The notes under the pieces were generated by a model, which worked only from the letters and a program-made list of their open reading frames with translations, was not told the origin of the DNA and did no database searches. From assembly GCA_016933055.1 (NCBI GenBank), contig JAFGBS010000014.1, forward strand, positions 150,568-214,567: a stretch of DNA of 64,000 nt. The letters are read 5' to 3'. This stretch comes from Promethearchaeota archaeon (GTDB lineage: Archaea > Asgardarchaeota > Lokiarchaeia > Sigyniarchaeales > Promethearchaeaceae). This document shows positions 6,150 through 20,560 of the stretch, piece by piece; the first letter of the stretch is position 1; each line of letters starts with the position of its first letter. A program made the position numbers and the translations under genes.

Positions 6150-7187
6150 ATGAATCCAGAATACCGATTAACAGCTAAAACGCAAATTCATGGATGATCA
6201 TGTAAAGTATCAAAAGGTGCTCTCGAACGGATTTTAATGGGATCCGGGTTAGACTATTCTGCAGAAGATTGTGCCGTAAAACCGATTGGGAATAAGATAT
6301 TAGCCACAAACGTGGATATTTTTACTCCCATTCATGATGACCCTATTGTTCAAGGAGAAATCACCGCTTGTAACGCTACAAATGACCTATTTGCCATGAA
6401 TGTGATTGATATCATTATGTATCTGAGTTTCCTCGGAGTCCCGGTGGATCAACCAGAAGAGATCACTCAAGGGTTAATTAAAGGTCAAAGAAATTTTCTG
6501 AAACAATTTGGCGCCGATATAAATGGAGGTCATACAATTATCAATCCTTGGCCGATATCGGGGGGAATTGTAGTAGGAATCGCGGATAAAAAGGATCTGA
6601 TACCAAAACAGTTACGAACTACAGCCGATACAGGAGATTTGTTCATCACCAAACCGATCGGAATACAAGCAGCTATGGCAATATATCGTATACAAAAAGA
6701 TGAGGACAATGTCCTAAATGAATTATTCCCAAATGTGAAAAAAGTAACACTCGATAAAATGGTAGATACTGCGGTAGAAGTAATGCGGAAATCCAACCAT
6801 GAGGTGGCTCACATAATTCGAAAATATCATCTCAGAAATGGCATTGCCAGTATGACCGATATAACAGGATTTGGTTTGAAACAACACATAGAAGAAATAG
6901 TCCAAGGTACCCAATTCGACATCTCGATAAATACATTACCAATTATCGTGGGTACGGATAAAATATCTGATGGTTTAGGTTATGATCTCATGGGTGGATG
7001 TGCTGCAGAAACTGCGGGTCCAATGTTATTATGCATAGATCCTAATGAAATTGAACATGATGAAATCTTACGAGTGTTTCACAAGGAAAAAGTCCCGATT
7101 TGGAGTATCGGACAATATTTCAAAGGAAATGGAAAAGTGACCATCTCGCAAAATCCTAAGATCATTCAAGTAGAAAAAATAAATTAG
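6150..7187 (+). CDS. selD: Selenide, water dikinase (selenophosphate synthetase), predicted selenoprotein with Sec at codon 16 (TGA 6195-6197)
   Basis: In-frame ATG at 6150 gives MNPEYRLTAKTQIHG-U-SCKVSKGALERILMGSGLDYSAEDCAVKPIG.... The TGA falls in the SelD catalytic [C/U]xCK motif. The track ORF (6237-7187) is the same frame after the TGA. Confidence 0.92.
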
Positions 7188-7260
7188 TAGTTCCCTATGA
7201 AGAGGGTGAAAACCGCTTGCGGGTAACTCTCGGAGGCTTCTGCTTGCAAAGCAGGAACTA
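7188..7260 (+). ncRNA. Predicted SECIS element in the selD 3' UTR
   Basis: GAGGGT(7202-7207)/ACTCTC(7226-7231) helix, GAA (7208-7210) opposite A (7225), GC-rich apical stem ACCG-CTTG-CGGGT. Below it ATGA (7197-7200) lies opposite GGA (7232-7234), with CCT/AGG beneath. Outer TAGTTC/GAACTA pairing and a second hairpin CTGCTT-GCA-AAGCAG. Confidence 0.75.
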
Positions 7261-7276
7261 TATTCTCTCTTTTGTT

Positions 7277-7690
7277 CTATATATACATATCTCTGTATGA
7301 ATCATCGTCTTCCGATTCATAGTCTTCATCATCCTCTTCATCCAGGATCTCTTCAAGTATTTGCCGTAACTCAGGATATTCTCTCAAAAACCTCTTAATA
7401 TCTTGAAAGTCCATCATATCAGGAGTAAGGGGTATATCGTTCATTGAAACAGGAATTCGGATTTTCTTCCGTATCTTTACACCCTTTTGTTGGAGTAGAT
7501 CAAGGTAAATTTTGATTAATTCTTGCTCTATCTCTGTGGCTTCCATTTCATAAATCTTTGAATCTGAATACTTATTTTCTAATTCAAGGAATCCCTTTTC
7601 CCTGAGTTCTTCATCCATTTCCACACCAGATAATTTTTTGACAAAATCTTTAACCACTTCGAAATTTAGAATGTCTCTCCATGTTGCCAT
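7277..7690 (-). CDS. Hypothetical acidic protein
   Basis: 137-aa ORF, strongly acidic C-terminus (DEEDDEDYESEDDDS). Convergent with selD. Confidence 0.7.
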   Translation of the reverse strand: MATWRDILNFEVVKDFVKKLSGVEMDEELREKGFLELENKYSDSKIYEMEATEIEQELIKIYLDLLQQKGVKIRKKIRIPVSMNDIPLTPDMMDFQDIKRFLREYPELRQILEEILDEEDDEDYESEDDDSYRDMYI

Positions 7691-7859: not shown

Positions 7860-9449
7860 TTGACTGAGGATCCTAGTAAATATACTGAAGATGACTGGCA
7901 TAAGCTCTATACAGAAGAAACTGGTAAGAAGGCAATATGGGGAGGTAAAATCACCAAACTGTATTTAACTTGGTTACAAAATAAAAAACAAGAGCTCGGT
8001 TTGGTTGATGAAACACCAAAATCAAAAGGGTCTACTAAAAAAACTAAAGAATCATCTACAATCAAACCAGAACCTTCAACCAAAGAAAAGCCGAAACTAA
8101 AAAAAAAGGAAGTAGAAACTGAACCTATTGCCCAAAAAAAATCTGAAGAAAAACCAACTGAAAAATCAAAATCAAAGAAGAAGAAAGGGGAAAAAGGATC
8201 AAGCCTCCAAGCAGAAACGAATGTTGGTATGGTGGGGCATGTAGACCACGGAAAAACAACGCTTGTTGATGCTCTTTCGGGTGAATGGACAGATAGATAT
8301 CAAAAAGAAAGAGAACAAGGTATAAGTATTAAATTAGGATATGCTAATTGCGTAATAGCTTATTGTCCAAGTTGTGATAAGTACGTAACCTACCATCTTG
8401 CTAATGCTTTAAAAAAAAAGAAACAAAAACGAAATACTTGCCCCGATTGTGCAGGAGAATTGACTTTTTGTAGGAAAATTAGTTTTGTGGATGCCCCCGG
8501 GCATGAAATCTTGATGGCTACTATGCTTAGTGGAGCAAGTTTAATGGATGGGGCATGTTTATTGATTTCGGCAAGCGAAAAATGCCCTCAACCTCAAACA
8601 CGGGAACACTTAGCAGCTCTAGATATTTCTGGTATCGATAAAATTATCATTGTTCAAAATAAGATTGATATGGTATCAAGGGAACGAGCAATTGAAAACT
8701 ATAAAGAAATTAAGAAATTCATTAAAGGAACAATTGCTGAAAATGCTCCAATAATTCCTATTTCTGCAATTTATAAAATCAATATCGAGGAAGTCCTTCG
8801 AAAGATTCAAGAAATAATTCCGACCCCCGATTTTGATGAAAACAAACCCCCACAATTCCATATAGCTCGAAGTTTTGATGTTAATAAACCCGGTACAGCG
8901 ATAGAAGAACTAAGAGGAGGAGTGGTTGGAGGATCAATTTCCCAAGGGGTGTTACAAATTGGAGATAAAATCGAGATCCGTCCTGGAATAAAACGTAGTA
9001 ATAAGTTTGAGCCATTAAAAACCAATGTGACCAGTATTTATCAAGGTGATATACCTTTAGATTCTGCACACCCCGGTGGATTGATTGCGATCGGAACAAC
9101 TTTAGATCCCTCATTAACAAAAGCGGATAATTTAATTGGGAACCTTGCTGGTATCATTGATAATCTTCCCGATGTTCAAAATCAATGTGAAATCGAAGTG
9201 CATCTTCTCGATAAAGTCTTAGGGGCTGAAGAAGAGATTGAGGTAACTCCCTTAAAAATTGGAGAACCAATGCTTTTAGTAACAGGCACATTATTGACCG
9301 CGGGTATCATCCAAAAGATTGGAAAGAAGAACAGAGTAGCTTTTAATCTCAAAAGACCGCTCTGCGCGGAAGTTGGAGCTACTGTGGCTATCAGTCGCCC
9401 CATTCGGAAGAGATACCGATTAATTGGTTACGGTATCCTCCGAACATAA
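7860..9449 (+). CDS. eif2g: Translation initiation factor aIF2 gamma with about 125-aa N-terminal extension
   Basis: GMVGHVDHGKTTL, DAPGHE, QNKID, Cys4 zinc knuckle CPSCDKY...CPDCAG, RSFDVNKPGT, GGVVGGSI. Confidence 0.95.
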   Translation: MTEDPSKYTEDDWHKLYTEETGKKAIWGGKITKLYLTWLQNKKQELGLVDETPKSKGSTKKTKESSTIKPEPSTKEKPKLKKKEVETEPIAQKKSEEKPTEKSKSKKKKGEKGSSLQAETNVGMVGHVDHGKTTLVDALSGEWTDRYQKEREQGISIKLGYANCVIAYCPSCDKYVTYHLANALKKKKQKRNTCPDCAGELTFCRKISFVDAPGHEILMATMLSGASLMDGACLLISASEKCPQPQTREHLAALDISGIDKIIIVQNKIDMVSRERAIENYKEIKKFIKGTIAENAPIIPISAIYKINIEEVLRKIQEIIPTPDFDENKPPQFHIARSFDVNKPGTAIEELRGGVVGGSISQGVLQIGDKIEIRPGIKRSNKFEPLKTNVTSIYQGDIPLDSAHPGGLIAIGTTLDPSLTKADNLIGNLAGIIDNLPDVQNQCEIEVHLLDKVLGAEEEIEVTPLKIGEPMLLVTGTLLTAGIIQKIGKKNRVAFNLKRPLCAEVGATVAISRPIRKRYRLIGYGILRT

Positions 9450-9473: not shown

Positions 9474-9983
9474 CTAATCCATCGCGTATTTTTTTGTGTA
9501 ATCACGAGCTTGCTTATTGAATCGTTCAGGAGACCTCAATGCTTGCTCTCCCGCTTCATGATTCAATGGATCACCAGGATTGTAAAAAGGAGGTTCCATA
9601 TGAATCATTGCTCGAAGAGCTTCAATAATATTTGTCAAAGTTTTCGCCGGAGTCCATCCGCTTGCACCAGTGGTCTGATCTACCTTTCCAACAAGATCTG
9701 GATTAATGAGATCTAAGCAAATATTCAATTTTCCAGGGGGGATGGATGGATCAATGTTTGGATGCCACAAAAGTGTATGACAATAAGCATAAGGGGGACT
9801 GAAAGGATAATTTTCAGGTAATTTTATCTCAAAAATGAATTTACCCCCCTTATATGGTGTATTAGGTAGTCCTTTGATCGTCAATCGAATATGATCAACT
9901 GACATACCCCATGGTTCAATTAAAACTTCTTTATTAGAATTAAAAGCTTCTACAGATTCTTGATAATCAGTTTCTTCGCGCAT
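9474..9983 (-). CDS. Ubiquitin-conjugating enzyme E2-like protein
   Basis: FIFEIKLPENYPFSPPYAYCHTLLWHPNI...GKLNICLDLI...GWTPAKTLTNIIEALRAMI: canonical UBC fold motifs including the active-site Cys. Confidence 0.95.
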   Translation of the reverse strand: MREETDYQESVEAFNSNKEVLIEPWGMSVDHIRLTIKGLPNTPYKGGKFIFEIKLPENYPFSPPYAYCHTLLWHPNIDPSIPPGKLNICLDLINPDLVGKVDQTTGASGWTPAKTLTNIIEALRAMIHMEPPFYNPGDPLNHEAGEQALRSPERFNKQARDYTKKYAMD

Positions 9984-19926: not shown

Positions 19927-20473
19927 CCAATATGGGAGTTCCCGAAAAATATTTTCACAATTATTATTACCCTACAATCCAACTCCTGAAGATTTGATAC
20001 GAACAGTCTTGCATGAATTAACGGTCAAGAAAGGACAAGTTTTATACGATTTAGGTTGCGGTGATGGTCGAGTCTTACGAATAGCAGCAGAAGAGTTTGG
20101 ATTACATGCAGTGGGATATGAAATCGATACTACACGAATCCAAGTATGTCGAGAAACGCTTAGAAGTCTTCCTCTCAAGATTCAAAAAAAAATTCGGATA
20201 TTTGAACAAGATTTATTTACGGCTGACCTAAACAAGGCGGATTTAGTGTACATTTATGGATTACCAGACGTATTTCCCTATCTCGTCCATGTTATCCAAA
20301 CTTGCCAACCAGATACCATACTTATACTTGTTTTATATGAACCAGGTGAAACTGTGAAGAGAGAGATGGGAATTGTGATTGAGAGAAAAATATCTATTCG
20401 AAATGCTAGTTGGTTCGCATATATTGCTAAAAAAATGGAGAAAGAAAACAGTGGCGCCGCGACCGGGATTTGA
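19883..20473 (+). CDS. SAM-dependent methyltransferase (aKMT/FAM173-like)
   Basis: VLYDLGCGDGRVLRIAAEEFGLHAVGYEID, DLFTADLNKADLVYIYGLPDV. Confidence 0.82.
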   Translation: MKMKWIKIRRNRKINQYGSSRKIFSQLLLPYNPTPEDLIRTVLHELTVKKGQVLYDLGCGDGRVLRIAAEEFGLHAVGYEIDTTRIQVCRETLRSLPLKIQKKIRIFEQDLFTADLNKADLVYIYGLPDVFPYLVHVIQTCQPDTILILVLYEPGETVKREMGIVIERKISIRNASWFAYIAKKMEKENSGAATGI

Positions 20474-20560
20474 ACCCGGGTCCAAGGAGATCTGCAAGAT
20501 CGTCGAGAACTCTCAATCTCATGACAGTCCTCGATGCTCACCGAACTACACTATCGCGGC
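20452..20560 (-). tRNA. tRNA-Asp (GTC) with an intron of about 32 nt and encoded CCA
   Basis: Reverse complement GCCGCGA-TA-GTGT...GCAT-C-GAGGA-CTGTCA | intron | TCCTT-GGAC-CCGGG-TTCAAAT-CCCGG-TCGCGGC-G-CCA. Intron has GAGAT/ATCTC pairing. Confidence 0.9.

Follow-up and report, generated by a model that had tools for sequence, protein, structure and literature searches.

Eukaryotic SECIS elements consist of a single arm. For the Asgard archaea, an earlier source for the type II eSECIS-like element of selD is reportedly the work of Mariotti et al. 2016. In the available portion of Huang et al. 2024 (PMC11227280), type II eSECIS-like is the main form reported for Asgard selD, the models comprise a core, an upper stem, an apical loop and a lower stem, the last with GAG_CUC-type pairs in the type II model, and a second hairpin is not mentioned. 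A 2022 review assigns the Lokiarchaeota SECIS a single apical loop, a 2026 review makes no use of the words hairpin, junction or three-way, and the literature searched contained no description of an archaeal SECIS as a three-way junction. Nor did this literature contain an experiment in which an Asgard SECIS was shown to recode UGA. In Methanococcus maripaludis, a lokiarchaeal vhuU SECIS was inactive (PMC11881835), a failure that may be explained by factors or by the part cloned, and in M. maripaludis a single shortened stem-loop suffices as SECIS (PMC11881835). As for proteins, the available portion of PMC11227280 gives SBP2 as absent from Asgard archaea, and the L30 of M. maripaludis does not bind its SECIS (PMC9499178).

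The element described here follows selD, encoding selenophosphate synthetase, in the window, i.e., the whole 64-kb stretch of DNA that was analysed, which belongs to an Asgard archaeon of the class Lokiarchaeia. With UGA translated as selenocysteine (Sec), the selD coding sequence occupies 6150-7187 on the + strand (345 aa, stop TAG at 7185-7187), and its product begins MNPEYRLTAKTQIHGUSCK... and contains the Pfam domains AIRS and AIRS_C. The U of HGUSCK corresponds to the in-frame UGA at 6195-6197 (+), the codon that the element must recode. The mechanical list of open reading frames begins selD at 6237 (6237-7187), downstream of the Sec codon, and the active-site HGUSCK is missed. The host genome encodes both tRNA-Sec (anticodon UCA) and SepSecS, so that, together with the Sec codon in selD, a SECIS is to be expected. 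The preliminary description had called a SECIS behind the selD stop while making no mention of the UGA at 6195-6197, which in fact makes such an element necessary. Matches to selD were present in 149 of the 232 genomes searched in the phylum, and all Asgard selD genes of the collected set carry TGA at the Sec codon. The neighbours of selD in the window are aIF2 gamma (7860-9449, +) and a ubiquitin-conjugating (E2) domain protein (9474-9983, -). Farther away, an Rfam tRNA match of 106 nt (20455-20560, -; 49.7 bits), which is absent from the ARAGORN calls, is probably a tRNA with an intron.

The structured RNA at 7188-7260 begins directly 3' of the selD stop. Based on comparative sequence analysis, we interpret it, with a probability of roughly 0.87, as the selD SECIS in the form of a closed three-way junction composed of an outer stem (P1), a type II eukaryote-like arm (arm 1), and a second hairpin (H2). 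All parts lie on the + strand. P1 is predicted to form between UAGUUC (7188-7193) and GAACUA (7255-7260) and would close both arm 1, the SECIS stem, and arm 2, which is H2 (CUGCU-UGCAA-AGCAG, 7240-7254; stem 7240-7244/7250-7254, loop 7245-7249). At the base of arm 1, a putative kink-turn C-stem pairs CC (7194-7195) with GG (7235-7236), as C7194-G7236 and C7195-G7235; this short helix is read from the sequence and from homology to Thorarchaeia, where a UCC/GGA helix is predicted and nearly invariant. It is followed by the kink-turn bulge UAU (7196-7198) and by G7199 and A7200, which would form sheared pairs with the core GA on the opposite strand (7233-7234), as G7199.A7234 and A7200.G7233, with a mismatch, A7201.G7232, above them. 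The core GA directly abuts the 3' strand of the C-stem, and 7194-7200/7233-7236 has the two-dimensional layout of a kink-turn, namely a C-stem, a 3-nt bulge, tandem G.A pairs and a gapless opposite strand. The upper stem (GAGGGU, 7202-7207, with ACUCUC, 7226-7231) then leads to an A-rich 5' bulge, GAAAA (7208-7212), and an apical ministem, CCG-CUUG-CGG (7213-7222; pairs 7213-7215/7220-7222). Every base named in the preliminary description (GAGGGU/ACUCUC, AUGA, GGA, the hairpin and UAGUUC/GAACUA) is found where it was placed, but its lower pairing has to be adjusted, since the GGA facing AUGA and the AGG pairing below it share A7234, which would be used twice; the consistent C-stem is the CC/GG pairing given above.

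The dimensions of arm 1 are those of the type II element. The core NNGA-N / N-[G/A]A is present as AUGA-A (7197-7201, with AUGA at 7197-7200) and G-GA (7232-7234), and the upper stem has 6 bp (type II limit, at least 6 pairs), the 5' bulge 5 nt (3-6 nt), the ministem 3 bp (2-8 bp), the loop 4 nt (2-6), and the 3' bulge 3 nt (1-6); the context is also as in type II, the element lying in the 3' UTR of a gene that encodes Sec and the host having the Sec machinery. The type II pattern matched 130 of 137 selD 3' regions, compared to 158 of 411 shuffles, and its match in the window is at 7199. The element therefore resembles the Asgard type II eSECIS-like form in its 5'-AUGA_GA core with one N on each strand, its 6-bp stem, A-rich bulge and ministem, and its position in the 3' UTR of a Sec-encoding selD. 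In contrast with the one-arm Asgard model in the available portion of PMC11227280, however, its lower stem, P1, appears to close a three-way junction with H2. With eukaryotic form 2 SECIS elements, such as that of SEPHS2, it shares the AUGA/GA kink-turn core and the unpaired bulge adenines under the apical ministem, but differs in the short C-stem abutting the kink-turn and in the closure of the junction by P1 and H2. It is similar to euryarchaeal SECIS elements (GAA_A, Methanococcales) in its archaeal 3' UTR location and kink-turn-like motif, whereas the GAA_A bulge and the consecutive G-C pairs are not conserved features here. Judging by the literature covered, H2 is likely, though not certain, to be previously undescribed.

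For comparison, a set of selD genes was gathered across the phylum, and two alignments were analysed: A2, with 61 Loki-type elements (60 from one other family plus that of the window), and A1, with 34 selD elements of family f28 (Thorarchaeia). Unconstrained RNAalifold returned P1, arm 1 and H2 in both. In A2, 96.4% of cells were paired (shuffles, 87.0%; slid controls, 27-50%), and in A1 95.4% (shuffles, 84.6%; slid controls, 31-46%). Two-sided changes occurred at 18 of 19 pairs in A2 and at 13 of 20 in A1, pair counts that are inflated by kinship among the sequences. The individual A2 helices were paired at 95.1% for P1 (two-sided changes at 5/5 pairs), 98.9% for the upper stem (6/6), 97.8% for the ministem (2/3) and 94.1% for H2 (5/5), and the H2 helix of A1 at 100% (4/4). 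The A2 columns of the core were nearly invariant (UGA, 61/61; 3' G, 59/61; 3' A, 61/61), as were the AAA before the ministem (7210-7212; 60-61/61) and a G in the H2 loop (61/61). The kink-turn layout is also conserved in A1. The alignments, in which covariation at homologous selD 3' regions had been proposed as a check, and the model match described below support the identification as a SECIS, the eukaryote-like nature of its AUGA/GA core, and the suggested closure of a junction by the second hairpin together with the outer pairing.

In Thorarchaeia, the P1 5' strand coincides with the last selD codons (GAGACC/GGUCUC, GAGGCC/GGCCUC, GAAACC/GGUUUC and GAAACU/AGUUUC), and the non-coding 3' strand mostly changes along with the coding 5' strand. 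The SECIS accordingly overlaps the coding sequence in the f28 loci (L109-L151), with the P1 5' strand in the final selD codons. In family f20, four genomes were read, and the selD hairpin ACCU-CGCAA-GGU was present in two. The f20 selD genes (L133, L134, L137 and L138; genomes G163-G166) also share a conserved in-frame TAA 88 codons after the Sec UGA, located within an apparent short insertion, immediately downstream of a conserved inverted repeat (GTAAAT-N7-ATTTAC). Past this TAA the reading frame remains open, and the SECIS lies downstream of the final stop, raising the question of an intron, bypass or a split gene. In f4 Lokiarchaeia (e.g., L009, L015, L022 and L031), adjacent selD paralogues of the HGUSCK and FGUNCK types are found, and each of the two encodes Sec and carries a junction SECIS of its own.

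The junction also recurs at other Sec genes. The host's own Sec hdrA-flpD is followed by AUCGAU..AUCGAU around an AUGA..GA arm and CCCU-UGCAA-AGGG, with the same H2 loop as in selD, and a Sec vhuA/frhA-type gene from the same genus (L300) by a junction with ACCC-CGCAA-GGGU; the PF00374 matches of the host genome itself had no reported in-frame UGA. When the junction in its entirety was encoded as a strict descriptor, it matched 104 of 137 Sec selD and 27 of 30 Sec flpD genes (the flpD from the same order), compared to 31 of 685 selD and 11 of 150 flpD shuffles, and among controls it matched 1 of 71 Cys selD (bacterial SelD included), 0 of 18 Cys flpD, 13 of 354 other ORF ends and 14 of 882 window chunks. 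Many of the 33 selD (of 137) missed by the strict descriptor still have H2 by eye; a GC-type H2 loop is absent in selD L024 and L135. Among descriptor matches, the H2 loop contains GC in 91/104 selD and 26/27 flpD, its usual form in selD being (Y)GCRA, often with GCRA as the end of the loop, and in f4 flpD often NNGCA. Unconstrained RNAalifold recovered the junction in both hdrA-flpD groups tested (A5 and A6); H2 is invariant in group B (A6) and hence shows no covariation there, and none of the four P1 pairs covaries in group A (A5). Sec flpD loci at a greater distance, read by eye, carry CCCC-UGCGA-GGGG (L336 and L341) or CUCU-UGCAA-AGAG (L339 and L342), a loop containing UGCAA (L335) or a longer loop (L338), and no junction was seen in L337. 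These comparisons show a conserved, covarying two-armed RNA that accompanies Sec-encoding members of three gene families.

Two flpD loci displayed additional peculiarities. In L335 (f5), most of the SECIS arm is apparently inside the coding sequence, with GGA replacing UGA. In the same genus as the host, L191:166-246 (-) is a second SECIS copy approximately 1.1 kb beyond the flpD SECIS, and upstream of this copy there is only a remnant of an FlpD-like C-terminus, making it an orphan or pseudogene SECIS.

It is conceivable that only arm 1 constitutes the SECIS and that H2 is a separate 3'-end element, such as a terminator or a processing or stability hairpin. H2 does lie near the likely 3' end of the transcript, with a T-rich stretch following it in the window, and the Asgard models in the available portion of PMC11227280 contain only core, upper stem, apical loop and lower stem. 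However, only a few bases separate H2 from the 3' strand of P1, whose partner lies upstream of arm 1 and which covaries with it in selD. Downstream of Cys homologues and of other genes, H2 is rare or missing, and its loop, unlike that of a terminator, is conserved across gene families. We consider it unlikely that H2 is independent of the SECIS.

The preliminary description had read the element as a hybrid, with an archaeal GAA/A signature in addition to the eukaryote-like core, and a SECIS working via the euryarchaeal GAA_A bulge would follow from this. GAA (7208-7210) is indeed present opposite A7225 in the window sequence, but among the related selD elements the G occurs in only 2 of 61 and the opposite A in 14 of 61. 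Coded with no indels allowed, the euryarchaeal pattern from the literature matched 25 of 137 selD 3' regions and 80 of 411 shuffles, i.e., it was at shuffle level, and the window contains no ungapped match to two stems separated by a GAA_A bulge. A run of three C/G pairs immediately above the bulge is also absent, with A7211 and A7212 separating GAA from the C/G pairs, and GAA_A structures in Asgard are judged unlikely to be functional in the available portion of Huang et al. 2024 (PMC11227280). The A-run read as GAA/A is simply the type II bulge, and a SECIS operating through a euryarchaeal signature is very improbable. The further suggestion that the element is another intermediate between archaeal and eukaryotic types matches the view that the available portion of PMC11227280 already takes of most Asgard selenoprotein genes. 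Arm 1 is of an already known type, and the second hairpin and junction are the stronger finding compared to the hybrid reading.

Because SelD makes the selenium donor and the selD 3' region is highly structured, autoregulation would be plausible, and the RNA might be not a SECIS but a selD-specific regulatory element, such as a switch responding to selenium status. Yet the same junction is found after Sec hdrA-flpD and after the vhuA/frhA-type gene, and it carries the AUGA_GA core; we regard the probability of such a switch as very small.

Folding of the window sequence by itself gave a stability z-score of -2.35, with 2 of 200 shuffles as stable. Pair probabilities were 0.87-0.98 for P1 and 0.49-0.94 for H2 but 0.02 for the SECIS arm, and the fold containing the SECIS arm has an energy of -19.8 kcal/mol compared to -26.3 kcal/mol for the minimum free energy structure, in which P1 and H2 are kept and arm 1 is refolded. 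Folding, which had also been proposed as a check, hence supports the outer stem and second hairpin and speaks against the SECIS arm; since arm 1 is not favoured by thermodynamics in this sequence, it rests on comparison with relatives. A covariance model, R1, contains the window row, so that its match in the window is not independent, and a second model, R2, was made to avoid this; it excludes the window's family and derives from 30 elements belonging to a different family in the same order. R2 had a single match in the 64-kb window, at 7186-7271 (40.7 bits, E 8.5e-8), and also matched L002, from the same family as the window (E 3.6e-7). Weak R1 matches elsewhere (E 0.07-1) were not SECIS-like when their sequences were read directly. 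The proposed search with SECIS covariance models was negative in the case of Rfam, in which no SECIS family was matched by the window at gathering level, by 7100-7400 down to E 10, or by five relatives at gathering level. Despite the lack of support for arm 1 from folding of the single sequence, a chance structure can be dismissed given the covariation in independent alignments and the match to a family-excluded model.

If the junction is the selD SECIS, known SECIS biology implies that it would cause the ribosome to read the UGA at 6195-6197, approximately 1 kb upstream, as Sec. The kink-turn could be held by some L7Ae/L30e/SBP2-like factor, and the unpaired bulge adenines may be read by SelB/EFSec. 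P1 and H2 might fix the orientation of the arms or add a further contact, with a factor or with the ribosome. Many H2 loops end in a GNRA-like sequence, which would be suited to protein binding or to docking into a helix. More speculatively, and at somewhat less than even odds, Asgard SECIS elements may in general be two-armed, with the H2 loop (GC core, often YGCRA) acting as a second site of recognition or docking on which recoding depends; eukaryotes would lack this site and may have replaced it when SBP2 arose.

H2, conserved across several Asgard lineages and gene families, is a testable candidate for the missing contact by which archaea, without SBP2, would link a distant 3' UTR signal to the decoding ribosome. 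The junction also bears on the failure of the lokiarchaeal SECIS in a methanogen, and as a descriptor it improves the search for Asgard selenoprotein genes. The transition from archaeal to eukaryotic SECIS elements has so far been compared via single-arm structures, a picture that the predicted junction changes.
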